This document shows, piece after piece, positions 12,542 to 27,960 of a stretch of DNA of 32,113 nt. The DNA lies in NCBI GenBank assembly GCA_019639215.1, contig JAHBSH010000027.1, positions 1 through 32,113 of the forward strand. The letters are read 5' to 3'. A program made the position numbers and the translations under genes. Each line of letters starts with the position of its first letter. The first letter of the stretch is position 1. Under the pieces are notes generated by a model, which saw only the letters and a program-made list of their open reading frames with translations, did not search any database and had not been told where the DNA came from. The DNA comes from Acidobacteriota bacterium. GTDB lineage: Bacteria; Acidobacteriota; Blastocatellia; Pyrinomonadales; Pyrinomonadaceae.

Positions 12542-15019
12542 TCAGAAACTCTTACGAAATAGATACGAGACGCGTATAAAAAAGGTTCTACTATTTCTTG
12601 CAAATCCGGTTTCCGGATCACCGGAAAAAGGATTTCGGCCATTGTAATTAAAGTTGTCGTTGTAACCCGCGTAAAAAGCCGTTCCCGGGCTTGGTGTCCA
12701 ACCAAAAAGAGCCTGTCCCGCAAAATTGTCTCTCATCGAATCGTAATCAAGACGTGATCGGATAAAGACGAATCGTGAGAAAGAATAGGTAGATCGAAAA
12801 CTCAATATATCGGAGTCGAACGACCGTATCCTATTGTCATTGCGCACCAGACGGCTTTTGTTATAACTTGCCGATGCACGCCAAGCATTTATGGGTTTCC
12901 ATTCGATCTCTGCACCGGCACTGAACTGCTTTCCGGGGCCGGGATCAATTTGGCCGTTTCCAACAGGGAAAAAGTAATCAAATCTGTTGTTGCCGTAGTT
13001 AACACTAAGGTAGTAGGCAAAATATTTGTTCAGATTATGATTCATCTCACTGTAGATGAATTGTTGCCATGCATCACGAAACGGATCGCCAAAAAACCGC
13101 CCAGGCCGTGAGGGCATTCTTTTCAGGCCAAATTCTTCCTCATAGATCTTTTCGCGAACGACTCCAGTTTCCATATAGAAAAATATCGACCGCTGAAAAG
13201 AAAGGTTTAGATTAGTTCCTGCCCTAAAGCGTTGCATTCGTCCTGAGAAATCAAAATCGTAACCGGTGAATTTGCCCCAGTTCGCACGGATCAGAGTAGC
13301 GTTGGGCCGCGACTTAGTACTCGTGCGATGGTAAAAGAACAGAAAGTTCGAATCTGTTCGTGAAGTGAATCCTGCATCGGCACGATAGTCCGCCGATCTG
13401 CCTCCTGCCTCTATGAACCAGCCCTGTTGGTCAGTGTAGTAATCGAGGTTACCGTAATATCCGACTGCATTGCCGGTGCGGTATCTGTCGTAGCTTCCGT
13501 TGCCCAGCGGGTTCAGCGATGTGCTGCCGGTGCCGCAGATCTCTCGGTTTCGCGATGTCTGAGCCGGATCATTATCCGGTTCGAACGAAGCGTCAAAAAA
13601 ACACCGGCGAGATGTGGTGCCCGTCACTTGAAGAGTGCCAGTCAGCTTTGGCGTAAACTTGACCCTTGTATCGACACTTGCAACCAGATTCTTCTGTTCC
13701 GGAAATCCGCGATACGTGGCAAAAATGCCTATATGATTCTCCTTGCCAAAGTCGCGTTTTACGCGAAAAATGCCGAAGATCGCGTTCTTGTCCAGAAATT
13801 CATTTATTCTCGGCCTGATGGACGCATCATTTCTTTCGTCTTCTCCGAAATTCCCCGGAGCTTTGTCCGTCGCGAACAGCAGTCCAAAGGAATTTTTCCC
13901 TTGCTTTCCCGTGAGTTTCAGGGCTACATCCGGATCGACTATAGTTCTGGAATGGAAAACTGTGATCGGTGTAGAAAATATGTCGGCTCCTTCAAGAAAA
14001 AATGGACGCTTTTCCTGAAAGAAGATCGGGAAACGCTGATTTGCTGTGACAACGGGTGCGTCGGCTTCGATCTCGGCGAAATCAGGATTGAAAGCTGCGT
14101 CAAGAGTTATATTGGGCGAAATGGTGTATTTTAGCGTCAGGCCGATGTCGGCTTTTACGGGCTGATTTACAAAACGCCCATTCACCACTTCAAGGGCCGG
14201 AACGCGACGTCCTGTTTCAGACACCGTTATACTGGGTGTTATCTCTAGCGTTCTTTCGTACTTTATCTCGTCCAGGCCAGTGATCTTTCCGTGTTGAATA
14301 AGAAATCCGGAAATGTTCCTGTCGTCCGGCAGCCATTGATTGAATTCATCATTAAAGCGATCAATATTGCGGGCGGCATTAAAACCCCACATTTTGTCCT
14401 TTCCGGCAGAATAACGAAGCGATTTGAAAGGTATTTTTACCTCGACAGCCCAGCCCCAATCTTCAATGACGCCTTTTGATTCCATGACGATGTCAACCGA
14501 AAAATCAGCTCCGTTGTCTTCGGTGTAGATGCCGTCCTGCTGTATCCCAAGCGGATTAAAACCAAGTACATAAGCCCTTCGCTGGTCATTGAAAGTGTCG
14601 AGCCAGACGCGAACATTATCCTCACCAAAGACCTCGTCACGCTTTGCTACCGTTGCCCTTATCTTGTCGCGTTCATCCCAGCATTTGAAGCCTATGTATA
14701 GATGCAGTTCGTCATAGAACATATAGACCTCAGTTGGTCTGGAAGGGGCTGTATTGTTGCCGGGACTTGTCTGGTAAAAATCCTTAAAGACAGCTGCCGT
14801 TTGCCAGACCGGCTCATCCAATTTCCCGTCAATGACTATGGCGGTCTCTGTTTTAGGCACTCTTACGGGTGATGCTTTTTCAGGCGGGATCGCTATTTTT
14901 GTAGTGGGCGAAGGTTTACCGGAGCTTTCAACACTCGGCCCTTTTCCCGGAGCCTGAGCGAAAATCTTAGGCGAAGCAAAGACGATGATTATGGTAAGCA
15001 GAGTCAATATCGATCTCAT
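12542..15019 (-). CDS. CBM9-like / DUF5916 outer-membrane protein
   Basis: The 825-residue protein starts with a signal peptide (MRSILTLLTIIIVFASPKIFAQ) and a Pro/Ser-rich spacer. A carbohydrate-binding family 9-like beta-sandwich follows, beginning AIVIDGKLDEPVWQTAA and including WGWAVEVKIPFKSLRY. From about residue 250 it continues as a long DUF5916-type region (FFQEKRPFFLEGADIF is a hallmark). That region is rich in alternating aromatic strands and ends in phenylalanine (SYLFRKSF), as outer-membrane barrels do. The family is common in Bacteroidota and Acidobacteriota. Its substrate is not established; binding or uptake of a glycan or other polymer is plausible. It is co-directional with the DUF4097 protein 167 bases upstream. 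A hairpin (GAACGCCA-N6-TGGCGTTC, 15070-15091) lies in that gap. Confidence 0.9.
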   Translation of the reverse strand: MRSILTLLTIIIVFASPKIFAQAPGKGPSVESSGKPSPTTKIAIPPEKASPVRVPKTETAIVIDGKLDEPVWQTAAVFKDFYQTSPGNNTAPSRPTEVYMFYDELHLYIGFKCWDERDKIRATVAKRDEVFGEDNVRVWLDTFNDQRRAYVLGFNPLGIQQDGIYTEDNGADFSVDIVMESKGVIEDWGWAVEVKIPFKSLRYSAGKDKMWGFNAARNIDRFNDEFNQWLPDDRNISGFLIQHGKITGLDEIKYERTLEITPSITVSETGRRVPALEVVNGRFVNQPVKADIGLTLKYTISPNITLDAAFNPDFAEIEADAPVVTANQRFPIFFQEKRPFFLEGADIFSTPITVFHSRTIVDPDVALKLTGKQGKNSFGLLFATDKAPGNFGEDERNDASIRPRINEFLDKNAIFGIFRVKRDFGKENHIGIFATYRGFPEQKNLVASVDTRVKFTPKLTGTLQVTGTTSRRCFFDASFEPDNDPAQTSRNREICGTGSTSLNPLGNGSYDRYRTGNAVGYYGNLDYYTDQQGWFIEAGGRSADYRADAGFTSRTDSNFLFFYHRTSTKSRPNATLIRANWGKFTGYDFDFSGRMQRFRAGTNLNLSFQRSIFFYMETGVVREKIYEEEFGLKRMPSRPGRFFGDPFRDAWQQFIYSEMNHNLNKYFAYYLSVNYGNNRFDYFFPVGNGQIDPGPGKQFSAGAEIEWKPINAWRASASYNKSRLVRNDNRIRSFDSDILSFRSTYSFSRFVFIRSRLDYDSMRDNFAGQALFGWTPSPGTAFYAGYNDNFNYNGRNPFSGDPETGFARNSRTFFIRVSYLFRKSF

Positions 15020-15186
15020 GTATTTAGATCCTTTGGCATATTACGGCCACACAAGACAATAGTTTCCCGGAACGCCAGATGTATGGCGTTCGGTTCTTTT
15101 GTCCGAAACCCTAATGTCAATGTGAGGTGGTTAGTAGCAGCGGCAAGTCATTTCCGGCAGTTATGTACCGGAACATTTTCCAGCGA

Positions 15187-17061
15187 TCACTTGTTGCGTG
15201 AGAGCGGTTCACGAACAACAAGTCTGCCGTCATTGAATTTGAAATTGTATGTTGGGCCGCCGCTGCCATATAAAAGTTCCGTAACATCTTCTGTATGTGA
15301 GGTTTTGCCTGTGAAGATCGGTGTTGTGGAAATAAGCCTGGCATTGCTATTTTCGGAAAGCATTATGGTGACCGTCGCATCCTCGGCAGTCGAAGAGAGT
15401 GACTTAAAATCGCCCTCGAGAAAGACCTCTCCATCACGCGTAGAAGAGTTCATATCACCGGAAAAGCCAATGACACGAACACGGCCGTCGATCGTTTTGA
15501 CGGACAACTTGCCCGATGCGTCACGGACATCGATAGCTTCGTCGGCACCAGTAATATCCACGTCGCCGGAAACTCCGTCGAGCCTGATCTGGCCGTCAGA
15601 AATCACCCTTACATCCGAAGCTTGTGGAACCATTACGTCGACACGAATTTGCGGCAGTGTATCACTGCCGCCTTTATTACCGGTTACGGTCAATTTTATC
15701 TCGTCGCCATTCTGATCTTCTTTTATCTCGGCTTCAGATTTATCGCCCACGCCGGAAGTCTCTGATACCACATAGCGAACTTCGGCTCGGTTCCATGATC
15801 GGACCGAGACATAAGCGTTCTTGACATTTATAACTACTTTCGGCTTTCCCTTTATCTTGAATGTTCCTGTTTTGCGATGCAGACTTGGTACCGTGTTGGT
15901 CCAGTTGGATCCTGAAAGGCGGGCAAGTGCGGCGGCTCTAACATCGGCAGACTGGGCAGTTCTTGCAGCAGCGAGTTCAGCTCTTCTCATGCTGGCAGCA
16001 GCAGTTCTTTCAGCAATAACACTTGATTCTTGTGCTTTTTTTATGGCTTCTGCGGTCTTTGCGTTTAGAGCTGTCGTCTTTGCCCGGGTTTCCTCCATGG
16101 CCTTGGTCACCTTTGCAAGTGTCTTTTCATCCAGCTCATTCATCTGCGGCAGATTGGCAAGGCCGGACATCAGGTCGTCAGTAAAGTCCTCTTCATCTTT
16201 TGTTGGAGACAGGTCAACAGCTGGCAAAGCATTAGTTCCTCCTCCGGCTCGGTTGATCGTTATCGCACCACTGATGCTGTTAAGTCTGACCTGAGCGGTT
16301 CCACTTCCGATCTTACCGTGCATATCGGTGCCAACCATCCTTTTATGGACGCGAAGGCCAAGAGCGTTCTCTATCTTTCCGCTAAGCGAATTTGCCTTAA
16401 CAGTTGCTTCTGCGTCAGGAGGGAGCGTTATCGAAACACGCCCGTTCACGGTATTGAGAGATACTTTGGAGTTCGGATCTAGCTTGGCAAAACCGACGGC
16501 GATACCACCATTTACAGTCTCAAGCGTGGTAGATCCGCTGAGATTGGTTGCGGTTATGCTTCCATTGACAGCGGATACTCTTACAGCGTTAGCCATGTTC
16601 GATACTCTGATCGCTCCGTTTACGGTCCCGATCTCATCCAGGACCGCATTCCGAGGTACTTTCAGATAAAAGCGAACCTGAGCTGAGCGGACGGTCTGTC
16701 CAAATGCACCACGGTTCGCACCTCCCCGATGATCAGCCTCGATCGTAATCGAATCAGATTTAGCCTTTATATCGATCTCAATATTCTTTAAGGCTTCAGC
16801 ATTTTCGGCGACCTTGATGGCGAGGACATGAACCTCATTCCGATCCCATGCTTCGACCTCGATCGAGCCGTTGATGTTTTGCACCCGAATGTGTCCGTCC
16901 GGTGTCAGAGGATAGGTCTGTTCGAACCTTTCCTCAACTTCCGGCGATTGTTGGTTTGTGTTCTGTGACGTTTGGGCAGTGTCTATTTGATAAGTATGAA
17001 CGTTGCCGCTGTCAGCTGCGATCACAAGGCCTGCGAAGATCAGAGAATAAAGCCAGGTCAT
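15187..17061 (-). CDS. Exported protein with two DUF4097-type beta-solenoid domains around a helical Ala-rich segment
   Basis: The 624-residue protein begins with a short signal peptide (TWLYSLIFAGLVIAADS). Residues of about 45-275 form a DUF4097-like region of short parallel strands. The recurrent turn NG appears in INGSIEVEAW, TVNGAIRVSN, AVNGSITATN, TVNGGIAVGF and TVNGRVSITL. A strongly helical, Ala/Lys/Glu-rich stretch follows (about residues 300-385), and then a second DUF4097-like region with SG/DG turns (GVSGDVDITG, TIDGRVRVIG, TRDGEVFLEG). DUF4097 proteins are often found with anti-sigma or stress systems, but no such partner is here. The two-domain layout with a helical middle suggests an extended surface or periplasmic scaffold. 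That is an inference. GGAG lies nine bases before the ATG. Confidence 0.88.
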   Translation of the reverse strand: MTWLYSLIFAGLVIAADSGNVHTYQIDTAQTSQNTNQQSPEVEERFEQTYPLTPDGHIRVQNINGSIEVEAWDRNEVHVLAIKVAENAEALKNIEIDIKAKSDSITIEADHRGGANRGAFGQTVRSAQVRFYLKVPRNAVLDEIGTVNGAIRVSNMANAVRVSAVNGSITATNLSGSTTLETVNGGIAVGFAKLDPNSKVSLNTVNGRVSITLPPDAEATVKANSLSGKIENALGLRVHKRMVGTDMHGKIGSGTAQVRLNSISGAITINRAGGGTNALPAVDLSPTKDEEDFTDDLMSGLANLPQMNELDEKTLAKVTKAMEETRAKTTALNAKTAEAIKKAQESSVIAERTAAASMRRAELAAARTAQSADVRAAALARLSGSNWTNTVPSLHRKTGTFKIKGKPKVVINVKNAYVSVRSWNRAEVRYVVSETSGVGDKSEAEIKEDQNGDEIKLTVTGNKGGSDTLPQIRVDVMVPQASDVRVISDGQIRLDGVSGDVDITGADEAIDVRDASGKLSVKTIDGRVRVIGFSGDMNSSTRDGEVFLEGDFKSLSSTAEDATVTIMLSENSNARLISTTPIFTGKTSHTEDVTELLYGSGGPTYNFKFNDGRLVVREPLSRNK

Positions 17062-17289: not shown

Positions 17290-18516
17290 ATGGCACTGAA
17301 AAACACTCGACTGCATATTCTGAAAAACGGGAATGCCCTTGCCGCGAAGGCACGGACAGGTGTTTCTCTCCATTGTCATACCGAGTTTTCCAAGGAGATG
17401 CTCGATTTTGTTCCTCATTATGCAGAGAAGCTTCCGATAATTGCGCAGTTCTGGCGGCGGGAAGACAAAAAATACAAAGAGCGGGAAGGTAAGGCAATAG
17501 ATTTTGGTACTGCTTATTGGTCGCCGCCTTTGCCGCCGGAAGAAGTGTATTCGATAGAAAAGCGCCAGATCAACGATGCGGGCATGGATGCTTTGGTCTC
17601 GCTTACGGATCATGACAGCATCGACGCAAATCTGATCGTCAATGAAAAGGCTGAAGCGGAAAAAGCTCCTATATCAATGGAATGGACGGTGCCGTTCGAG
17701 TTTGGCTTTTTTCATGTTGGCGTTCATAACCTGCCAAAAGACAGAGCTGTTGAACTGACAAAGATCCTTCTGGACTATACATTTCAAAAAGAGAATCACA
17801 ACGACGAAAAATTGGCTGAAATGTTCGCGATGCTCGAAGAACTGCCAGGCGTGTTAGTTGTTTTGAATCATCCTTTGTGGGACATAGAGATGGCGGGAAA
17901 GGAACGTCATCTGGAATTATTGAAGGATTTTATACGCATTCACGGAAAATGGATCCATGCCTTTGAGGTAAATGGATTTCGTTCCTGGTCTGAAAACAAG
18001 GCAGTAATCGAACTGGCGGGTTCGATGGGTATGCCGATAGTCACAGGTGGCGACCGGCATGGTTGCAAGCCAAATACGGTAATAAACCTAACGAATGCAA
18101 GTACGTTTGAGGAATTTGCAGAAGAGGTTCGTGTGGATAAGCGGACAGAGATCGTTATGATGCCTGCCTACGAACAGCCGCTGCAATCCAGACAACTTGA
18201 ATCATTTTCTGAGATCCTACGACACTACCCAGTGTTTCGCGATGGGCGCCGCCGATGGATCGACCGTGTTTATGTGGACATTGGGGACGGACACGGACTA
18301 AGGCAACTCTCCGATCATTGGGATAACGGCGGTCCGCCGTGGCTCCGGGCTGCGATATGGACGCTTGGCGTTCTCGGCAGCTCAAAGGTACGTCCGGTAT
18401 TCCGGGCTTTTAGGAAAAAAGCTGACCGTGTACCTAAAGAGGCAGCTGAAGCTAACTTTGAGATCGTCGAAATTGAAGGATCCGCCCACGGTATATCCTC
18501 GGAATCACCTGCCTGA
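17290..18516 (+). CDS. PHP-domain metal-dependent phosphoesterase-like protein
   Basis: First gene of the plus-strand lipid/glycan run. The 408-residue protein has the PHP metal-binding motifs in order: SLHCHTEFS (about residues 25-33), LTDHDSID (about 109-116), LNHPLWD (about 199-205) and GGDRHG near residue 257. PHP proteins hydrolyse phosphate esters (histidinol phosphate, nucleotides, polyphosphorylated sugars), using two or three metal ions. The substrate here is unknown. The C-terminal 100 residues (from about 300) lie beyond the core and contain an amphipathic, Trp-rich stretch (PPWLRAAIWTLGVLGSS) that may touch the membrane. It lies 106 bases ahead of a glycosyltransferase, so a role in sugar-phosphate or lipid-phosphate turnover is a reasonable guess. 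The ribosome site is weak (AAAGA). Confidence 0.85.
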   Translation: MALKNTRLHILKNGNALAAKARTGVSLHCHTEFSKEMLDFVPHYAEKLPIIAQFWRREDKKYKEREGKAIDFGTAYWSPPLPPEEVYSIEKRQINDAGMDALVSLTDHDSIDANLIVNEKAEAEKAPISMEWTVPFEFGFFHVGVHNLPKDRAVELTKILLDYTFQKENHNDEKLAEMFAMLEELPGVLVVLNHPLWDIEMAGKERHLELLKDFIRIHGKWIHAFEVNGFRSWSENKAVIELAGSMGMPIVTGGDRHGCKPNTVINLTNASTFEEFAEEVRVDKRTEIVMMPAYEQPLQSRQLESFSEILRHYPVFRDGRRRWIDRVYVDIGDGHGLRQLSDHWDNGGPPWLRAAIWTLGVLGSSKVRPVFRAFRKKADRVPKEAAEANFEIVEIEGSAHGISSESPA

Positions 18517-18622
18517 TAACTTCCTCAGTTTACGGTTGGAAAATATTCATTTAAACTTGTAAGGTTAATAGTTTGCTTAGGCGGTCAATGGCCGCCAAAG
18601 TATTTTTATAGGATAAGTTTTT

Positions 18623-19822
18623 GTGAGTGTTCCACCAAGAATAGCTTTTTTTCCCGATTCGTACGAAGAGGTAAATGGAGCCGCAATGACGTGCAAACGC
18701 CTTACGGAATATGCGCGGGGCAACGGTTACCCTTTTCTGGTGATCCACGCAGGTCATAAGAATAGGGAATGGACTGACGGATCGGTGGAATATCTGCAGC
18801 TAAAGCGTTCGCCGGTTTCGTTCTCTCTTGACGAGGAACTTGCCTTCGATCCTTTTTTTCAACGCCACGTCAATAAAGTGTTAAGGAGACTGGTCGAGTT
18901 CAAGCCCGACATCATACACATAACGGGCCTTAATGATGTAAGTATTGTTGGCTCTTATCTGGGCTGGAAGCTGCAGATACCCTTGCTCGGTTCATGGCAT
19001 ACAAATCTTCATGAATTTGCTGCACAGCGCCTTAAGCAAATAATGAGATTCCTGCCGCAAAAATATTCTGAAGGAATATCAAGTTTTGCCGAAAATAAGA
19101 TACGTGACGGTGCAGTGCTCTATTACAAGATGCCTAAAGTGGTACTTGCCCCTAATCAAGAACTGGTCGATCTGCTAGGTAAAGGAACTCATAGGGCTGC
19201 TTTTCTAATGGGCAGAGGCGTCGATTCAGAAAAATTCTCACCGGCAAAGCGAACGGTTGATGATGACATTATACGATTGGGCTTCGTCGGCAGATTGAGG
19301 CCGGAAAAGAACGTCAGAATGCTTATCGAAATAGAAAAGGAACTTTTGAAACGCGGAAAAACCGGATACAAATTTCTTATTGTTGGCGAGGGTAACGAAC
19401 ATTCTTATCTTGAAGAAAAAATGAAGCATGCTGAGTTTACAGGATTTCTTCAAGGCGAAGAATTGTCGGAGGCTTATGCCAACATGGACATTTTCATATT
19501 TCCCTCTGAAACCGACGCTTTCGGCAATGTTGCCCAGGAGGCCGGTGCGTCAGGCGTATCGTCGATAGTTTCTGATAAAGGCGGCCCCAAATATATAATC
19601 AGCGACGGTGAGACCGGATATGTGGCAAAGACAAAAGATGATTACGTGAATTTCACCATCGAACTGATGGAGGATCGCGAGAAAAGATCAGAAATGGGAC
19701 GCAAGGCCCGTGAGTTGACGATAGCTAATTCATGGGATGCTATATTTGCTGGTGTATATGATGGTTATGCCGAAACACTGAGAATAGCCGGAGAACGTAA
19801 GCAGGTAAACGGTGACAAGTGA
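18623..19822 (+). CDS. Glycosyltransferase family 4 (GT-B fold)
   Basis: The 399-residue enzyme starts at GTG 18623, with AGGA nine bases before it. Seen: an N-terminal acceptor half with DIIHITGLNDVSIVG and LLGSWHTNLHEF, and a C-terminal nucleotide-sugar half with LGFVGRLRPEKNV, the FLIVGEGNE loop, and FPSETDAFGNVAQEAGASG. The donor-binding E-x7-E motif reads D-x7-E here (DAFGNVAQE), with the usual Glu-rich context. This is the SQD2/PimB/MgtA-like branch that moves a sugar to a lipid or lipid-linked acceptor. Acceptor and sugar cannot be read from sequence. It is 11 bases from the membrane protein downstream, so it is in the same operon. A lipid acceptor is suggested by BtaA/BtaB further on. 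Confidence 0.92.
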   Translation: MSVPPRIAFFPDSYEEVNGAAMTCKRLTEYARGNGYPFLVIHAGHKNREWTDGSVEYLQLKRSPVSFSLDEELAFDPFFQRHVNKVLRRLVEFKPDIIHITGLNDVSIVGSYLGWKLQIPLLGSWHTNLHEFAAQRLKQIMRFLPQKYSEGISSFAENKIRDGAVLYYKMPKVVLAPNQELVDLLGKGTHRAAFLMGRGVDSEKFSPAKRTVDDDIIRLGFVGRLRPEKNVRMLIEIEKELLKRGKTGYKFLIVGEGNEHSYLEEKMKHAEFTGFLQGEELSEAYANMDIFIFPSETDAFGNVAQEAGASGVSSIVSDKGGPKYIISDGETGYVAKTKDDYVNFTIELMEDREKRSEMGRKARELTIANSWDAIFAGVYDGYAETLRIAGERKQVNGDK

Positions 19823-19833
19823 TCGGGTGAAAA

Positions 19834-20661
19834 ATGCCGTTGCCCGACGGATCGAATATGAAGGAATTAACCGCTGACGAAACACCTGTGGAAGAAGAGC
19901 CTCACACTTTGAGTGGAGTTACGCTTTCTCTATGGAATGAACCCGGGCGATTCGTCAAGTATTGGAATTACAAGGGAGCAGTGCTTAGCGGCGTTATACG
20001 TGCGCCGATCTTTTTTGTTACGTATCTTATCGGCAAGGAAACACTCAGACTGGCAATAGGAGCTGCTGTGGTGCAGTTTCTGTTTCGGTTTCTTTTTGCG
20101 GGTGTGGGTGGCACTCTCATTCAAGCCTTTCGCCATGTCGAACCGGCATGGAAGGCTCTCATTGCCATACTTCTTCTGGTGCCTTTGATCAGCCATATTT
20201 TGGAGTTCTTCGTTCAAGCCGGTTTTGCTTACGTTACGGATACTCAGAATCTGACCGACGCAGCAATATTGCGTTCTGTTTCAGTTTCGATCATTTCCGC
20301 ATTGTTCACACTTTTTGCGATGCGTCGCGGAATAATGATCGTTGGTGAATCCGAAAGCAAGAGCCTGGTCAGCGATATATCTAAACTTCCGGCGGTGATC
20401 TTCCATTTTGTGGCTTTCATACCAAATGAGATCGCGGGAATGATCCGTCGCGGAGCATTTCTTGCTATTCCGCTCGCGTTTCTTGCCTTCGGCGTCTTTG
20501 CTCAGGTCATCGTCTGGGCGGTCATGAATAAACCTTCCTGGACATACAATAATGGAAAGGAGATCGCCGTATTAAAGTATTGGGGGGTTGATGGGATGAT
20601 CCTGCTTGCGATCGCAGTGGCGATGTCGCTGGCGACACATGCCCGGAGGAACAGGAACTGA
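19834..20661 (+). CDS. Polytopic membrane protein of unknown function
   Basis: The 275-residue protein has a soluble N-terminus (about 45 residues, acidic: ADETPVEEEPH) and then roughly five hydrophobic segments. These include GAAVVQFLFRFLFAGVGG, WKALIAILLLVPLISHILEF, SVSIISALFTLFAMR, FLAIPLAFLAFGVFAQVIVW and a last one at the C-terminus (MILLAIAVAMSLA), followed by a basic tail (HARRNRN). I do not recognise a family. An alternative start is the ATG at 19858, which has GGA nearby; the first eight residues would then be lost. It is tightly packed between two GT4 genes (gaps of 11 and 13 bases), which suggests it works with them, for example as a membrane partner for lipid handling. Confidence 0.8.
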   Translation: MPLPDGSNMKELTADETPVEEEPHTLSGVTLSLWNEPGRFVKYWNYKGAVLSGVIRAPIFFVTYLIGKETLRLAIGAAVVQFLFRFLFAGVGGTLIQAFRHVEPAWKALIAILLLVPLISHILEFFVQAGFAYVTDTQNLTDAAILRSVSVSIISALFTLFAMRRGIMIVGESESKSLVSDISKLPAVIFHFVAFIPNEIAGMIRRGAFLAIPLAFLAFGVFAQVIVWAVMNKPSWTYNNGKEIAVLKYWGVDGMILLAIAVAMSLATHARRNRN

Positions 20662-20674
20662 CCTGCCTACGACG

Positions 20675-22036
20675 ATGAAGACTTCTTTCAAGACGCTGCA
20701 TCTGACGAACTATTACCATAAGAATTCGGGCGGCATCAGTACGTCATTCAACAACCTGCTCGCAGCTGCCGAGCGTCACCGCAGAGAAGTTAGACTGATC
20801 GTTCCGGGTGAAGAAGAGGCAGTTGAGGACGTGAACGAATATGCCCGCATATATTATGTGCCTGCCAAGTATTCGCCCATCTTTGACAAACGCTATCGGC
20901 TGATCCTGCCGTGGCAGTATATGCCTCACGATTCGCTGATCAAAAAGATAATGGCCGATGAGATGCCTGACCTTGTAGAGGTAACTGACAAATATACCTT
21001 GAGCATGATGGGCAAAATGATCCGCTCAGGTTACTTCGAAGAACTCGGCAGGCCAATACTTGTTCATTTTTCCTGCGAGAGAATGGACGACAACGTGGCT
21101 TCATTCCTTTCGAGCGGAGGATTTGGCAAATGGCTTTCTAGCCGAATTGTCGGTAATTATCTGCTGCCGAGTTTTGATTATCACATCGCAAACTCTTCCT
21201 ATACAGCTAATGAATTTTATGAAGCGGCAAAGGCCGCATCCAAGAACGGCAAGGGCAGTTTGCTATTTCGCAGGGCGTGGCGTTTCTTTGACGCTCCTCG
21301 CATTCCTCTATCACAACGTATCTTTGTGTGTCCGCGTGGTGTTGATGCCGTAAGGTTTACTCCCGACAGAAGATCCGAGGATGTGCGAAGAGAGATGAGG
21401 GAGCGAGCAGGCATTCCGCAAGATTCGACCGTTTTGCTTTATGCGGGTCGCATCTCGCCGGAGAAGAACATCGAGCTTCTGATCGATGTTATGAATGAGC
21501 TTGTAGAAGAAGATCGTTATGATCACCGGATACTTATTGCCGGAGCAGGCCCAAAGAGTGAATGGTTGAAGGAAGAGGCTGACAGAAGATTTCCCGGCCG
21601 AATAGTTCAGCTTGGACATCTGGATAAGGATCTTTTGGCTGATTACTATGCAAATGCCGATGTCTTCATTCATCCCAATCCGCGAGAACCGTTTGGCATA
21701 GCTCCATTGGAGGCAATGGCGTCGGGGGTGCCTACCGTGGCTCCGCGTTCAGGCGGTATATTGTCTTATGCAACGGATGACAATGCGTGGCTTGTTGAGA
21801 CGAACGGAAAGGCGTTTGCGGAAGCTATAAGATCGATCTTTGATGACGAGAATGAGCGGCTGAGAAGAACGCAGAATGCAGTTGAAACTGCACGCTTAAA
21901 TACCAGAGAGGCATCTACCGACAATCTTTTTGAAACGTATGATCGTATCTTTGAAGATTTTCACAACAGGCAGGAACTCTTTACCGACATCGAGAAGATG
22001 CGTGATTTTGATTATACTAGTGTGATAAATGTTTGA
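20675..22036 (+). CDS. Glycosyltransferase family 4 (GT-B fold)
   Basis: I start this gene at the ATG at 20675 (KTSFKTLHLTNYYH), 13 bases after the previous stop. The frame is open to 20606, but that part overlaps the upstream gene and is not protein-like. The 453-residue enzyme opens with the typical strand plus HKNSGGISTSFNNLL (sugar-acceptor side). It carries LLYAGRISPEKNIELLIDVM, HRILIAGAGPKSEWL and a complete E-x7-E motif in REPFGIAPLEAMASG. It is not a close copy of the other GT4 at 18623, so the two are likely to make successive or different linkages. The gene overlaps the permease start by 8 bases, which indicates translational coupling. Confidence 0.92.
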   Translation: MKTSFKTLHLTNYYHKNSGGISTSFNNLLAAAERHRREVRLIVPGEEEAVEDVNEYARIYYVPAKYSPIFDKRYRLILPWQYMPHDSLIKKIMADEMPDLVEVTDKYTLSMMGKMIRSGYFEELGRPILVHFSCERMDDNVASFLSSGGFGKWLSSRIVGNYLLPSFDYHIANSSYTANEFYEAAKAASKNGKGSLLFRRAWRFFDAPRIPLSQRIFVCPRGVDAVRFTPDRRSEDVRREMRERAGIPQDSTVLLYAGRISPEKNIELLIDVMNELVEEDRYDHRILIAGAGPKSEWLKEEADRRFPGRIVQLGHLDKDLLADYYANADVFIHPNPREPFGIAPLEAMASGVPTVAPRSGGILSYATDDNAWLVETNGKAFAEAIRSIFDDENERLRRTQNAVETARLNTREASTDNLFETYDRIFEDFHNRQELFTDIEKMRDFDYTSVINV

Positions 22037-23129
22037 ACTGATCCTCGCAAATCTCAGGGTAAGGCCGCTACGCACACTCATCAGCGTGGCCGGAGTTGCC
22101 ATTGGCGTCATCCTCATTGTCCTTTTTACGGGTCTTGCCAACGGCATGGCAAATGACATGGCAAAACGGGCGGCAAACTGGAAAGCGGAGATCGTTTTTA
22201 CACGTGCCGGAGCGATGTCGCTTGACAGCTCTAATTCACCGGTGCCGACAGCCTATGCAGATCGCCTTTTGCAAATCGAAGGGGTTGAAGCAGCTCTTCC
22301 GGTTATTAGATATGTCACCTCAAGCCCTAAAGGGAGTTGGGGCATCAGGCAGATAGACGGAGTTGATTGGGAACCGTTCTCGGCGATGAATGAGATCAGT
22401 TTGATAGAAGGCCGTGCACCGACAGCTTCCAACGAGGTCGTTTTTGACGAACGGCAAATGCTGGACGATAAGGTAAAGGTCGGCGACACCGTCGAGATAT
22501 TTGGAGGAAAAGAATACAAGGTCGTCGGGGTATTTTCGCCTCCTTCAGGAGCGAGAATAAAAATGTCGCTTTCGGCCCTGCAGGATCTGTTGGAAGCAAA
22601 GGACCGATGCACCTATATTCTGGTCAAAATAGCCGACGGAGCGGATGCCGAGACGGTTGCTGCTCGTATCAATGAAGAACTGCCCGGAAACAAAGTGAAT
22701 CTGACCAGCGATCTGATAATAAATGCACAGGATCGTGTGCCAGGCCTAAAAACCTTTTTGCGTGTGCTGGTAGGATTGGGAGCTTTTGTAAGTACGATCT
22801 TCGTTCTGCTGTCGATGTACACGACTATCACAGAACGCAGAAAAGAGATCGGTATCCTTAAATCTCTTGGAGCCTCTAAACCATTCATCATCGGTTCTAT
22901 CGAAGGCGAGGCGGCGCTGATCGGCATACTTGGAGTTCTGGCGGGACTTTTATCGGCTTTCGCTGCAGCGTTGGTCATCGGGCGAGTATTCGAGCTTGAG
23001 TTTGAGTTCACATCCGGTTGGGTCATCATTTCCGTTGTGATCGCTCTTGCAGGAAGTATTGCCGGAGCATTCTATCCGGCTTGGCGTGCCTCGACGATAG
23101 ATCCTGTCGAAGTAATGGTCAATGAATAA
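22029..23129 (+). CDS. ABC transporter permease, MacB/FtsX type
   Basis: The 366-residue protein has the MacB/LolC layout: an N-terminal transmembrane helix (TLISVAGVAIGVILIVLFTGL), a large extracytoplasmic domain (about residues 40-230, MacB_PCD type) and a C-terminal FtsX domain with three helices. The motif ITERRKEIGILKSLGASKPFI is diagnostic, and the end is PAWRASTIDPVEVMVNE. Such permeases do not transport through a classic channel but couple ATP use to movement of lipoproteins, lipids or drugs in the periplasm. No ATP-binding subunit lies in this window, so it must use one encoded elsewhere or outside the frame. It starts inside the end of the GT4 gene (8-base overlap). Confidence 0.93.
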   Translation: MFELILANLRVRPLRTLISVAGVAIGVILIVLFTGLANGMANDMAKRAANWKAEIVFTRAGAMSLDSSNSPVPTAYADRLLQIEGVEAALPVIRYVTSSPKGSWGIRQIDGVDWEPFSAMNEISLIEGRAPTASNEVVFDERQMLDDKVKVGDTVEIFGGKEYKVVGVFSPPSGARIKMSLSALQDLLEAKDRCTYILVKIADGADAETVAARINEELPGNKVNLTSDLIINAQDRVPGLKTFLRVLVGLGAFVSTIFVLLSMYTTITERRKEIGILKSLGASKPFIIGSIEGEAALIGILGVLAGLLSAFAAALVIGRVFELEFEFTSGWVIISVVIALAGSIAGAFYPAWRASTIDPVEVMVNE

Positions 23130-23209
23130 ACCATCTAGCAGGTAAATTCTTCGTAAAATCTTCTTTGAATTCGATTGAAGTCTGGCGGTTTTCGCGCTCA
23201 ACTTGAGAT

Positions 23210-24442
23210 ATGGCGGAACAACTCGTATTAGAAGCCGTGCGTAACGAACAGGCGGCCTCAAAACAAGGATTGCTCCAGCGGATGTTCGCGATCTGGTTTG
23301 ACGCTTTTGTTTATAATCAGATCTGGGAAGATCCGCGTGTCGATATCGAGGCTCTTCAGATAGACGGCGATTCAAGCATACTCACCATTTCATCTGGCGG
23401 CTGCAATGCGATGAACTACCTGCTTGAAGGGCCGAAAAGTGTGACCGCCGTTGACCTGAACAAACACCACATTTATCTGCTTGAGCTAAAGGCAGCGGCA
23501 GCAAAACACCTTCCTTCACACAGAGCATTCTTTGACTTTTTTGGTGACGGAAAGGGAAGCAATACAGGTCCTAACTATCTTCGTTATATCTCAAAAAACC
23601 TCAGCCGCGAGGCGAGGGATTTTTGGGGATCGAATACAGCCCTTGGCAAATTGTTGTATGGTGACCGCATTGCTTTCTTTTCCGGAGCAGGACTATACGA
23701 CCATTCGCGAAACGGATACTTTCTAAGATTCTTTCACCGTTTTGCAGGGCTGCTGGGTTGTGACCCCGCAGCGATACTCGAAGCAAAAGGCCAGGAAGAA
23801 CAAGAAAGAATATACAAAGAGAAGATAAAGCCATTTTTTGACAGCAGGTTGATACAGACCATCGGAAAGCTGCCTGTTACGCTCTTTGGGCTTGGTATTC
23901 CGCCGCAGCAATATGACGAACTAAAACGCGATCTTGAGGAAGGCGGGACGGTCATCGACATCTACGAAGAGCGAACACGGCGGCTGGCGTGCTCTTTTCC
24001 TATAGATGACAACTATTTCGCGTGGCAGGCTTTTGGCCGCCGCTATGACACGCTTGGCCGAGTGGCGATACCTGAGTATCTGAAAGAGGAAAATTTTGAG
24101 GAGCTGAGCGGAGCCGTCGACCGGCTCGAGACGCGCGTAGCCTCGGCGACCGATGTTGTACGCGAATCGCCATTCGGGACGTTCAACAGGTTCGTATTTC
24201 TTGATGCACAGGATTGGATGAATGCTGACGCAATGACAGAGCTTTGGACGGCAATAGCAGACCGGGCTGAGAGCGGTTCACGCATCATCTTTCGCACTGC
24301 CGGAGCCGCTTCGCCAATAGAAACCGCACTTCCGCCTGAGCTTAGGGAAAAGTTCACATACGAGCATGAATTATCGCTGGAACTTTTTAAAAAGGACAGA
24401 GCTTCTATTTACGGCGGTTTTCACCTGTACACGATCAGATAA
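23210..24442 (+). CDS. btaA: BtaA-like SAM:diacylglycerol 3-amino-3-carboxypropyltransferase (DUF3419)
   Basis: The family enzyme transfers the homoserine part of S-adenosylmethionine to the free hydroxyl of diacylglycerol, giving diacylglyceryl-homoserine, the first step of betaine lipid synthesis. The 410-residue protein shows the usual opening FVYNQIWEDPRVDIEAL. It has a SAM-type Rossmann region LTISSGGCNAMNYLLEG-PKSVTAVDLNKHHIYLLELK and a C-terminal FDAQDWMN-like segment (FLDAQDWMNADAMTELW). The length is close to that of Rhodobacter BtaA. The gene directly after it is a methyltransferase, matching the btaA-btaB pair known from Rhodobacter sphaeroides. The gap to the permease is 80 bases with no terminator, so it may be in the same operon. 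In known bacteria the pathway rises under phosphate starvation, but I see no Pho box here. Confidence 0.88.
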   Translation: MAEQLVLEAVRNEQAASKQGLLQRMFAIWFDAFVYNQIWEDPRVDIEALQIDGDSSILTISSGGCNAMNYLLEGPKSVTAVDLNKHHIYLLELKAAAAKHLPSHRAFFDFFGDGKGSNTGPNYLRYISKNLSREARDFWGSNTALGKLLYGDRIAFFSGAGLYDHSRNGYFLRFFHRFAGLLGCDPAAILEAKGQEEQERIYKEKIKPFFDSRLIQTIGKLPVTLFGLGIPPQQYDELKRDLEEGGTVIDIYEERTRRLACSFPIDDNYFAWQAFGRRYDTLGRVAIPEYLKEENFEELSGAVDRLETRVASATDVVRESPFGTFNRFVFLDAQDWMNADAMTELWTAIADRAESGSRIIFRTAGAASPIETALPPELREKFTYEHELSLELFKKDRASIYGGFHLYTIR

Positions 24443-24451
24443 GGCTAAATT

Positions 24452-25123
24452 ATGGACAGGCAGGGCATTAGCCAAGATCCGGCATCAGCATTCGGGGCAA
24501 TGGATCGGATGTACCGGTTTCAGCGCTATTTTTATGATGCGACGCGAAAATTCTATCTGCTCGGGCGTGACAGACTGCTTGAGGAGATACAGGTGTTTCC
24601 GGGACAGAATGTGTTAGAAGCAGGGTGCGGAACAGGCAGAAATTTGATGATACTCGCCGGAAGGCACAGCGATGCACAATTTTTTGGGCTCGATGCATCG
24701 TCCGTAATGCTTGAGACGGCTGAGACAAAGGCGGCTGCTAAAAAGCTGGGGAATATATCATTCAAAGTTGCTCTTGCCGATGATTTTTCTTACCGCGAAA
24801 CCTTTGGGCTGGCTGAACCGTTCGACATCATTTATTTTTCTTACTCGATCTCTATGATACCGCCGTGGCGTGAATCCATAGAGAATGCCCTGAAAAACCT
24901 AAGGCCAGGCGGATTGCTCTACATAGTTGATTTTTACGATCAAAAAGGTTTGCCGATATGGTTCCGATGGCTGCTCAAGCGATGGCTCCATCTTTTCAAG
25001 GTTGAATATCCTGAAATGCTTCTCCCTTATTTAGAGCAATTAGGTTCACAGTGTGCCGGTCATATTGAGATCACTCCTCTCTATGGACGCTATTGCCTAA
25101 TGGTTAAGCTCGTCAAGAATTAG
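24452..25123 (+). CDS. btaB: BtaB-like SAM-dependent N-methyltransferase
   Basis: This gene starts nine bases after btaA. The 223-residue class I methyltransferase has motif I VLEAGCGTGRNL (about residues 54-65), an acidic post-motif FFGLDASSVML, motif IV around DIIYFSYSISMIPPW, and LRPGGLLYIVDFYD. BtaB methylates the amino group of diacylglyceryl-homoserine three times to yield the betaine lipid DGTS. The size matches Rhodobacter BtaB (about 210 residues). Specific assignment rests on the pairing with btaA; on sequence alone it is a ubiE/COQ5-like methyltransferase. No terminator is obvious behind it. Confidence 0.82.
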   Translation: MDRQGISQDPASAFGAMDRMYRFQRYFYDATRKFYLLGRDRLLEEIQVFPGQNVLEAGCGTGRNLMILAGRHSDAQFFGLDASSVMLETAETKAAAKKLGNISFKVALADDFSYRETFGLAEPFDIIYFSYSISMIPPWRESIENALKNLRPGGLLYIVDFYDQKGLPIWFRWLLKRWLHLFKVEYPEMLLPYLEQLGSQCAGHIEITPLYGRYCLMVKLVKN

Positions 25124-25219: not shown

Positions 25220-25365
25220 TTGAGTGAGCCTATTACAAAACATCAATTTCGGCCTGTAAATACGGTCTTCTATGCTTTTCATCGTCTGTTACGACAGTAG
25301 TGGCATTTCATTTGCCATAAGTTGTGCCGGAGATGTCGAACATTTTTATTCAAGGAATGAGATCA

Positions 25366-27960
25366 ATGAAGAAATCAGCTTTAAGAAATAACCCTCTCAC
25401 TACATATTTCTTGACGGCATTTTTGCTCTTTACGCTAGTTTTACCGCTTACAGCGTTGGGACAATTGCCCGTTCAACGGAGCAGTGCTTTACCTGAGCAC
25501 GCTTCGATGGCGGATGAAACCACTTTGCCGCGTTTTTTGGTTAAGGTAACACCTGATCTAAATGAAGAATATTCTGATCTGGCTGTCGCTCACGCTGAGA
25601 AAGTCTCAAAGATGTTGACTGAGCGCAGCGGTAAAAGCCCAGTGCTTGTAGGAGCTGAATCAGGACAGATAGCCCCGATCATCGAACAGGTATCAGGCCA
25701 ACTTGCTCTCTCACGTTCTGGCAGAAGTATTTACACCATAGACTGGCGTGCCTTAGCCGAAGCGAACGCAAAAGGTCTCGACCTAGCAGCGACACTGGAC
25801 GAGATACTGAGTTTTATCAGTGATCCACAGGGAAGGAGAATACTTTTTGTTGACGATATCAGGAGCTTTTACTCTCGAGAACCACGTTTTGGCTCGATGG
25901 TGTCTGACAAGATGCGGACGGCTATCGCTGCGAACAATACCAGGATCATCAGTTATGCCACAAAAGAGCAGTTTGTTGCACAGGTCAATTTTGACCGCGT
26001 AATAGGTGCAAAACTTGCTCGCTTTGATCTGGTCGAGACTGATGCTGATCCATTTGTCGGCGAAAAGATCTCTCCGGACCTTAAAGCTATCATCGACGGA
26101 AAAGATCCTGATGAGATGGTTACCGTGATACTCCAGGCAGATGATGTTAAGGACGCTCAACTTCGCAGCATTCTAGCCCAACATGGAGTTGAGGTGAAAA
26201 GCACATCGGAAGAACTGAAGATGCTTACGCTACGTCTTCCTGCACGTACAGCAGCTTTGATCGCCGATGCTAGAGGTTCACGACATATCTCGCTTGATCG
26301 CGATGTTAAATTTCTCGGACATATAGATACTACTACAGGAGCCTCGCTGGTTCGCGGAAACGAAGGCCTAAAAGTCGGGCTTTTGGGACTTAGAGTGGGC
26401 GGTTCCTCAACACTTCTTGACGGCAGCGGTATTGGTATCGCCGTTCTAGATTCAGGCATTCGTGAAGATCACAGAACTTTTGTGGGTACGAACGGCTCTA
26501 GCAGGGTTGTCCGTAGAATGAATTTTACAGGAAACGGAAGCCCAACAGCTGATAAACATGGGCATGGGACACACGTTGCATCATTGGCGGCGGGCGGTAC
26601 AGGACAGACCTTGAATGTTCTGGACGGGCTGTATGTCTCAAATTATTCCGGTGTTGCACCTAATGCGAACGTAATAAATATTCGCGTTCTGGATGACAAC
26701 GGCGTAGGAACGGTCTCAGGGCTGATCAATGCTCTTAACTGGATCTACACGAACCGTGCAGCAAATAATATTCGCGTCGTAAACCTGAGTCTCGGAGCTC
26801 CGGCGGTTGAGACGTGGCGTAATGATCCGTTATGCCGAGCTGTCAGAAGACTGACGGCAGCCGGAATAGTTGTGGTTGCAGCAGCGGGTAATAACGGCAA
26901 GACCGCATCAGGGCAGAAGATATACGGAGCGATCCATTCCCCCGGAAACGATCCGTCGGTAATAACCGTAGGAGCCTCAAATACATTCGGCACCGATCGC
27001 AGGGACGATGACGGCGTCACGACTTTCAGTTCACGCGGCCCGACGCGCTCATTCTGGACGGATAACTCCGGTGTGAAGCGATACGATCATCTTATAAAGC
27101 CGGACATCGTTGCTCCGGGCAATTGGCTGATCGGAGCTCAGGCGGAAGGCAATCAGTTAATTCTGAATGCAAATCTCCTGTTAGTACAGGCAACTCTGCA
27201 GGCCGACAACAAACGCAAGATGATGTATCTGAGCGGTACGTCAATGTCCACACCTATCGTAAGCGGTACGGTTGCCCTGCTGCTCCAGGCAAATCCGAAA
27301 CTGACGCCGAACATGGTGAAGATGATCCTTCAATACACGGCACAGCCACTTGCGGGATTTAACATGCTGGAACAGGGAGCCGGCCAGTTAAATGTGGAAG
27401 GAGCTGTCCGTCTTGCGAAGTCGTTCAAGCAGAATTTGCCAACACCGACGCCACACGGCACATCACTGCAAACCGGCAATTCGCTCCCCACACATTTTTC
27501 GACCATTGGCGGCACTCGCTTTCAATGGGCAGGCGGAATGATGCTTGGCCACGGAGTAGTGACAGGAACCGAATGGATAACCCGTTATCAGGGGATCTAT
27601 AATAACGGCCTTCTTGTCAGTGACGGTCTGCTCGTCAGCGACGGTCTTCTTGTCAGTGACGGTCTTCTTGTCAGCGACGGACTTATTGTCAGCGATGGTC
27701 TGATCGTCAGCGACGGGACCGTGTTGCAGGGAAATTCTAGTCCATCCGGCTATCAACGCCTTACAAACGGTGCTCAATTCGCACCGCCGGGTTGGCTGTT
27801 GTCGAATAACTTTGCCATGCCGGACAACACTCTAATGGCAGACGGTTTGCTTGTCAGCGATGGTTTGCTGGTGAGTGACGGCCTTCTTGTCAGCGATAGT
27901 ACAGGCCTGAGAAATCTTGAGGTCTTGGTAAACGGTGATCCAACCTCAAGGATGTATTAG
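25366..27960 (+). CDS. Secreted S8 subtilase with ClpA/B-like pseudo-AAA+ domain and GLLVSD repeats
   Basis: I prefer the ATG at 25366: AAGGA lies nine bases upstream, and a clean signal peptide follows (TTYFLTAFLLFTLVLPLTALGQ). The frame is also open from GTG 25324. Of 864 residues, about 54-226 align by eye with the first AAA+ module of ClpA/ClpB: SPVLVG-AESGQIA at 96-103 where GEPGVGKT is expected, and ILFVDDIRSF (D163, D164) in the Walker B place. RIISYATKEQF matches the sensor-1 strand, and the run before FDLVE matches the arginine-finger helix. The Walker lysine is replaced by isoleucine, so ATP use is unlikely. An I9-like propeptide stretch follows (about 235-330). The subtilase domain is complete: D362 (VLDSGI), H400 (GHGTHVAS), N509 (AAGNNG) and S626 (SGTSMSTP). 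The C-terminus carries nine GLLVSD-type hexapeptides in two blocks. Confidence 0.93.
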   Translation: MKKSALRNNPLTTYFLTAFLLFTLVLPLTALGQLPVQRSSALPEHASMADETTLPRFLVKVTPDLNEEYSDLAVAHAEKVSKMLTERSGKSPVLVGAESGQIAPIIEQVSGQLALSRSGRSIYTIDWRALAEANAKGLDLAATLDEILSFISDPQGRRILFVDDIRSFYSREPRFGSMVSDKMRTAIAANNTRIISYATKEQFVAQVNFDRVIGAKLARFDLVETDADPFVGEKISPDLKAIIDGKDPDEMVTVILQADDVKDAQLRSILAQHGVEVKSTSEELKMLTLRLPARTAALIADARGSRHISLDRDVKFLGHIDTTTGASLVRGNEGLKVGLLGLRVGGSSTLLDGSGIGIAVLDSGIREDHRTFVGTNGSSRVVRRMNFTGNGSPTADKHGHGTHVASLAAGGTGQTLNVLDGLYVSNYSGVAPNANVINIRVLDDNGVGTVSGLINALNWIYTNRAANNIRVVNLSLGAPAVETWRNDPLCRAVRRLTAAGIVVVAAAGNNGKTASGQKIYGAIHSPGNDPSVITVGASNTFGTDRRDDDGVTTFSSRGPTRSFWTDNSGVKRYDHLIKPDIVAPGNWLIGAQAEGNQLILNANLLLVQATLQADNKRKMMYLSGTSMSTPIVSGTVALLLQANPKLTPNMVKMILQYTAQPLAGFNMLEQGAGQLNVEGAVRLAKSFKQNLPTPTPHGTSLQTGNSLPTHFSTIGGTRFQWAGGMMLGHGVVTGTEWITRYQGIYNNGLLVSDGLLVSDGLLVSDGLLVSDGLIVSDGLIVSDGTVLQGNSSPSGYQRLTNGAQFAPPGWLLSNNFAMPDNTLMADGLLVSDGLLVSDGLLVSDSTGLRNLEVLVNGDPTSRMY
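27607..27714 (+). repeat. Six tandem 18-bp units encoding GLLVSD / GLIVSD
   Basis: Block 1 of the subtilase C-terminal repeats. Four units read GLLVSD and two GLIVSD. Third codon positions differ between units (for example GGC/GGT/GGA, CTT/CTG, AGT/AGC), so the peptide is kept while the DNA drifts. Confidence 0.95.
27844..27897 (+). repeat. Three tandem 18-bp units encoding GLLVSD
   Basis: Block 2, separated from block 1 by about 43 residues. A degenerate unit (TLMAD) stands just before it. Codons differ from block 1 (TTG and GTG used), so it is not a fresh duplication. Confidence 0.95.

Follow-up and report, generated by a model that had tools for sequence, protein, structure and literature searches.

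In the synthesis of the betaine lipid diacylglyceryl-trimethylhomoserine (DGTS), BtaA transfers a 3-amino-3-carboxypropyl group from S-adenosylmethionine (SAM) to diacylglycerol, and BtaB completes the head group by three methylations. The BtaA/BtaB system of Sinorhizobium meliloti is experimentally established (reviewed in PMC3972451), and in marine Alphaproteobacteria the gene orders plcP-btaAB and plcP-agt, the latter with a lipid glycosyltransferase gene, are both known, deletion of plcP abolishing DGTS in Phaeobacter (PMC4796936). The phosphoesterase gene plcP is grouped with btaAB or with lipid glycosyltransferase genes because BtaA and those glycosyltransferases consume diacylglycerol. 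Here we analyze a 32,113-nucleotide stretch of DNA from an Acidobacteriota bacterium of the family Pyrinomonadaceae (assembly GCA_019639215.1, contig JAHBSH010000027.1), hereafter the window, which carries in this order genes for a PHP-fold phosphoesterase, a GT4-type glycosyltransferase (GT4a), an integral membrane protein, a second glycosyltransferase (GT4b), an ABC-type permease, BtaA and BtaB. That a phosphoesterase gene can be joined to btaAB or to lipid glycosyltransferase genes is already known; the PHP type is the new part, and the first-pass annotation of this DNA, made from the sequence alone, passed over this phosphoesterase, the most interesting element of the cluster.

Taking fold, gene order and distribution together, we put at roughly 0.4 the probability that the PHP enzyme takes the place of PlcP and frees diacylglycerol for use by BtaA and the two GT4 enzymes. 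The broader proposal, that an undescribed PHP-fold family is phospholipase C-like and a non-homologous replacement of PlcP, supplying BtaA and two glycosyltransferases from one Acidobacteriota locus, is offered tentatively. In either form the suggestion is that the PHP enzyme would work like PlcP, not that it is PlcP. The only PHP/phospholipase precedent that we found in papers is a PHP phosphoesterase in a polyisoprenoid-type neighborhood (PMC12419801).

Fold and metal site of the first gene product

The first gene product had been called a PHP protein in the first-pass annotation, a call that is borne out by the fold although the family is invisible to sequence searches. None of 18 homologues gave a relevant match in Pfam, the protein itself gave none in NCBIfam, and a profile of the homologues gave none among PDB sequences. 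This lack of a profile match lowers the standing of the protein as a member of a PHP sequence family and leaves the fold assignment unaffected. The AlphaFold (AF2) model (pLDDT 82) is matched by Foldseek to the PHP domain of RNase AM (E 1.2e-6), and VIA-align superimposes it on 3e38 (BVU_3505; Z 16.9, 209 residues, 3.0 A), PsfC (7rty; Z 16.2) and TM0559 (2anu; Z 15.1). The metal-ligand pattern, comprised of H28/H30 (HxH), D107-H108-D109, E131, H194 and D255/H257 (D-x-H), is invariant across the 18 homologues. The C-terminal segment contains a basic amphipathic stretch at residues ~366-385, where the helical moment of the protein peaks, a property that would suit contact with a membrane. A search of plasmids gave no PHP homologue.

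Phosphoesterase genes and their bta and glycosyltransferase neighbors

The lipid setting assigned to the cluster at first pass was upheld, as was the identity of its last two products, through a full-length DUF3419 match and the adjoining methyltransferase gene. The window BtaA scores 330 bits in its match to DUF3419 (PF11899; cut-off 28.2), covering positions 5-384 of 385, and shares 39% identity, across 96% of its length, with an S. meliloti homologue that is itself followed by a SAM methyltransferase gene. The 9-base gap between btaA and btaB fits a pair that is adjacent in most loci, both inside and outside Acidobacteriota. Homology thus settles the two as ordinary DGTS-type enzymes with a predicted lipid product. 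Our survey took in 147 genomes of the class (Blastocatellia), 48 of which contain DUF3419, 45 as close BtaA homologues and three as distant ones (G012, G025 and G050); the distant homologues (L075, L073 and L074, respectively) are 23-26% identical and have no BtaB neighbor.

Within the window's family the PHP gene is present in 33 of the 35 bta-bearing genomes and is linked to bta in most of those where contigs permit. The association also recurs apart from the cluster. In three genomes (G051, G095 and G040) btaAB lies outside the cluster and the next gene 3' of btaB, on the same strand, encodes a PHP protein 45-49% identical to that of the window, with no GT4 gene present; the BtaA sequences of these genomes form a clade (98/99). 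A fourth genome (G141) has btaB, then a GNAT acyltransferase gene (PF13444; L105:3746-4600), then the PHP gene, again with no GT4; in Pfam, OlsB-type aminolipid enzymes belong to this domain family.

A calcineurin-type phosphoesterase gene occupies a comparable place elsewhere. Thiothrix and a second gammaproteobacterium have an LpxH/PlcP-like gene of this type immediately after btaB, and a Rhodospirillales locus has a calcineurin-type gene preceding btaA. Judged by its family, the Thiothrix enzyme is presumably PlcP itself. In Blastocatellia, three bta genomes in which no PHP gene was detected (G003, G008 and G132) have a calcineurin-type phosphoesterase gene directly before btaA, and the contig of a further one (G049) is not long enough to reveal what lies upstream. 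Of the 45 bta genomes of the class, five are without PHP and three of these carry a PlcP-like gene, as against two of the 40 that have PHP (Fisher p 0.0065, not corrected for kinship). The window's own genome returned no PlcP-like match at E 1e-12, and the window PHP protein is not of PlcP's calcineurin type, its fold being different.

The simplest account of these patterns is a mechanism in which the PHP enzyme would cleave a phosphate ester at the membrane and free diacylglycerol from phospholipid, either directly or through dephosphorylation of a lipid phosphate. The diacylglycerol would feed BtaA and the GT4 enzymes, the role that the calcineurin-type phospholipase C PlcP has in Alphaproteobacteria; BtaA and BtaB would convert it to DGTS, and GT4a and GT4b would most likely add sugars to a lipid acceptor, one that is probably diacylglycerol-based as well. 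The PHP substrate, the glycosyltransferase products and phosphate control of the region are predictions. A PlcP-like role would account for PHP genes beside GT4a across the class, beside btaAB in bta lineages, or beside either alone.

The best NCBIfam match of GT4a is a lipid glycosyltransferase, GlcN-PG synthase, at 81 bits against a cut-off of 480, and the nearest solved relatives of GT4b are generic GT-B/GT4 enzymes, including phosphatidylinositol mannoside mannosyltransferase; a search for the acceptor among PDB and NCBIfam relatives gave only weak, generic GT4 matches. GT4b is duplicated in L040, L044 and L086. The pairing with GT4a underlies the main rival to a PlcP-like role, which we consider unlikely: the PHP enzyme would serve the glycosyltransferases only, dephosphorylating the GT4a product or a phosphorylated acceptor, and btaAB would share the locus merely by history. 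Pathways exist in which glycosyl transfer to a phosphorylated acceptor precedes a phosphatase step. At each of the 36 measurable loci PHP and GT4a are indeed neighbors, with the two genes overlapping in distant families, and the pair stands without bta in many genomes; such a role would, however, leave unexplained the four genomes in which PHP lies beside btaAB with no GT4, as well as certain Acidobacteriota PHP genes that lack a GT4a.

Several points weigh against the proposed release of diacylglycerol by the PHP enzyme. One genome (G090, assembly 88% complete) has btaAB with neither a PHP nor a PlcP-like gene, and no PHP gene before its GT4a; therefore diacylglycerol is obtainable in another way, for example by phosphatidate phosphatase. 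PHP occurs without bta in 25 of the 58 PHP-bearing genomes of the family and is also found in Acidobacteriota outside the class, sometimes without GT4a. Because it is common without bta and extends beyond the class, it cannot be bta-specific. Few independent lineages underlie the PlcP/PHP pattern, and the low-bit GT4 matches leave the acceptor unfixed. The known relatives within the PHP family have nucleic acids, small phosphate esters or phosphotyrosine as their substrates, and activity on lipids is a prediction for the present family.

A btaAB cassette at the end of an older cluster

The region is a composite, with a btaA-btaB cassette at the 3' end of an older PHP-GT4a-membrane-GT4b-permease cluster (see the table below). 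The window is a whole contig (C56); the assembly to which it belongs measures 2.9 Mb, is 92% complete and has one DUF3419 gene. The seven genes, their order, shared direction and spacings are all as first annotated: seven plus-strand open reading frames lie within 17290-25123, separated by successive gaps of 106, 11, 13, -8, 80 and 9 bases. The longest GT4b reading frame begins at TTG 20606; we place the start at ATG 20675 because the 13-base gap needs it and because alignments with homologues in relatives start at residues 1-5 of that form.

Features of the seven-gene region, in window coordinates
Feature	Position	Strand	Basis
PHP-fold metal-dependent phosphoesterase, 408 aa, undescribed family	17290..18516	+	predicted fold and invariant metal ligands
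GC-rich hairpin followed by T-rich stretch, terminator- or attenuator-like	18580..18596	+	7-pair stem with 6 GC pairs, in PHP-GT4a gap
GT4a glycosyltransferase, 399 aa, GTG start	18623..19822	+	PF00534, E 9.7e-31
Integral membrane protein, 275 aa, no family	19834..20661	+	helical model, pLDDT 71
GT4b glycosyltransferase, 453 aa	20675..22036	+	PF00534, E 1.1e-35
MacB/FtsX-type ABC permease subunit, 366 aa	22029..23129	+	MacB_PCD, E 3.5e-23; FtsX, E 2.9e-18
BtaA-like SAM:diacylglycerol 3-amino-3-carboxypropyltransferase, 410 aa	23210..24442	+	DUF3419, E 2.6e-98
BtaB-like N-methyltransferase, class I, 223 aa	24452..25123	+	Methyltransf_31, E 5.1e-17

The conservation of neighborhood anticipated at first pass holds within Pyrinomonadaceae. 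Among the 34 other bta genomes of the window's family (f1, taken as Pyrinomonadaceae by inference), 29 have the permease gene upstream of btaA and codirectional with it, the two being less than 400 bp apart in 24 of 28 measurable loci, and the complete PHP-GT4a-membrane-GT4b-permease-btaA-btaB order is found in most contigs of sufficient length. At the bta loci examined outside this family (Planctomycetota, Verrucomicrobiota, Thiothrix, Alphaproteobacteria and others), btaA and btaB are nearly always paired and no PHP, membrane-protein or permease neighbors were seen.

The five upstream genes also persist on their own. In the window's genus bta is present in 18 of 40 genomes, and 15 of the 22 that lack btaA keep the PHP gene; about ten bta-less genomes show the PHP-to-permease order on a single contig, and several share the same 8-base GT4b/permease overlap. 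In the permease tree these genomes fall in one clade (11 rows, support 100/97), joined there by two genomes in which bta has a different location. Members of the older cluster are also present outside the window's family but within the class (L094, L096 and L212-L215), and the PHP-GT4a pair extends further into the phylum. Genus g11 has five genomes, one of them titled Aridibacter famidurans, in which permease-btaA-btaB converges on an inverted GT4b-membrane-GT4a-PHP block, and in three other relatives unrelated genes, named by eye, separate the permease gene from btaA (a metal transporter with a regulator; TonB-type receptors with a peptidase). Because the cluster is kept without bta, the block can be split and inverted, and unrelated genes can be inserted, btaAB is best seen as an optional addition to an older cluster. 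Transfer of all seven genes as a horizontally acquired unit was considered and rejected, the five-gene part being present without bta in the same genus. Chloracidobacterium-like genomes (L060, L061, L062, L066, L071 and L077) have a reversed btaB-btaA order and carry PHP at another place in the genome (in L097 next to GT4a); some of these genomes come in two contigs, as for two chromosomes.

The gap between PHP and GT4a, the only one longer than 100 bases, contains GGCGGTCAATGGCCGCC and then a T-rich stretch. Hairpins that differ in sequence occupy this gap in nine relatives as well, and in all ten cases the gap is more stably folded than its shuffled versions (z -0.95 to -3.9), in contrast to the 80-base permease-btaA gap, which is not (z +1.25). 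Over the region as a whole, terminator-like sites are no more frequent than chance would give (8 against 8.8 expected), so the hairpin evidence is suggestive only, and to that extent it speaks against a single uniform transcript. Matches to sigma-70 promoters were at chance level (13 against 10.3 expected) and were set aside.

The first-pass annotation had read the seven genes as one operon with one function. In its full form this would be a single coordinated phosphate-response operon in which betaine and sugar lipids replace phospholipids and the permease and membrane protein move the products. A single strand, short gaps and an order kept in most bta-bearing relatives favor it, but the hairpin in the 106-base gap, the convergent split in five relatives, the unrelated genes ahead of btaA, the cluster and permease retained without bta, the near-universal permease and a linkage limited to Pyrinomonadaceae all tell against it, and we regard it as improbable. 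That restriction to one family is also what would be expected if the arrangement were ancestral synteny without functional meaning, every gene serving its own pathway. The flanking DUF4097 and CBM9/DUF5916 genes are likewise syntenic with no evident link to the cluster. Such hitch-hiking fits poorly with the permease-btaA-btaB block staying near the rest despite inversion in five genomes, and with the re-pairing of PHP with detached btaAB, and we hold it to be quite improbable.

The permease and membrane protein are accessory genes that predate the bta link. Permease homologues occur in 146 of the 147 Blastocatellia genomes, mostly without bta, so the permease is not betaine-lipid specific, and a role as a betaine-lipid exporter was rejected on the same count. 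Its score against the LolCE model (60 bits, cut-off 362) is below the equivalog threshold, and the seven-gene cluster contains no ATPase gene. The membrane protein has no Pfam or NCBIfam match, and a fold search with its moderate model also returned none; relatives carry two diverged subtypes at this place (31-37% and 53-66% identical to the window's). The gene is present twice, before and after GT4b, in L079, L084 and L089 (G022, G068 and G095), and in the G065 cluster (L031, just upstream of 6685) its product has an N-terminal zinc-ribbon-like motif (CxxC...CxxC).

Divergent from the cluster, on the minus strand at 12542-17061, are the genes for the DUF4097 and CBM9/DUF5916 proteins, syntenic with the PHP cluster in many relatives. 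A 537-aa protein replaces the DUF4097 protein upstream of the cluster in a bta-less subclade (L078, L080-L083 and L085); therefore either the five-gene cluster shifts position or the DNA beside it varies. On the other side, 25324-27960 encodes a subtilisin-family (S8) protease with short GLLVSDG-type repeats in its C-terminal region.

Comparison with known lipid-remodeling systems

A soil lipidome study ties betaine lipids only to fungal and proteobacterial taxa (PMC9969633), and no paper in the literature we searched treats betaine lipids, acidobacteria and btaA together. With complete btaAB present in many of its members, Pyrinomonadaceae, a family of common soil Acidobacteriota, becomes a candidate source of soil betaine lipids. 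If the PHP enzyme does free diacylglycerol, the key step of lipid remodeling that saves phosphorus would have been solved a second time with an unrelated enzyme, and genome surveys could recognize such remodeling in bacteria without plcP.

The permease shares its MacB_PCD and FtsX domains with LolCDE/MacAB-type ABC permeases but scores far under the LolCE and MacB models and has no ATPase gene nearby. The PHP protein has the same fold and metal-ligand pattern as the structures of BVU_3505 (3e38), PsfC (7rty), TM0559 (2anu) and RNase AM, whereas at 16-20% identity it has no sequence-level match to them and, unlike them, bears an additional C-terminal part with the basic amphipathic stretch. As in the DGTS pathway of Rhodobacter sphaeroides and S. 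meliloti, the window encodes its DUF3419 enzyme (~410 aa) as a protein of its own, with a SAM methyltransferase (~220 aa) coming next; the bta loci of S. meliloti and R. leguminosarum, in contrast, lack the PHP-GT4-membrane-GT4-permease cluster. The metallophosphoesterase-btaA-btaB loci of the three Blastocatellia genomes G003, G008 and G132 resemble the window in placing a phosphoesterase gene beside btaAB and differ in that their enzyme is calcineurin-type (PF00149/PF12850). Relative to the plcP-btaAB and plcP-agt clusters (PMC4796936), the window phosphoesterase is of the PHP rather than the calcineurin fold, with its activity and phosphate control predicted only; where those clusters set a phosphoesterase gene with either betaine-lipid or lipid glycosyltransferase genes, the window unites both groups.

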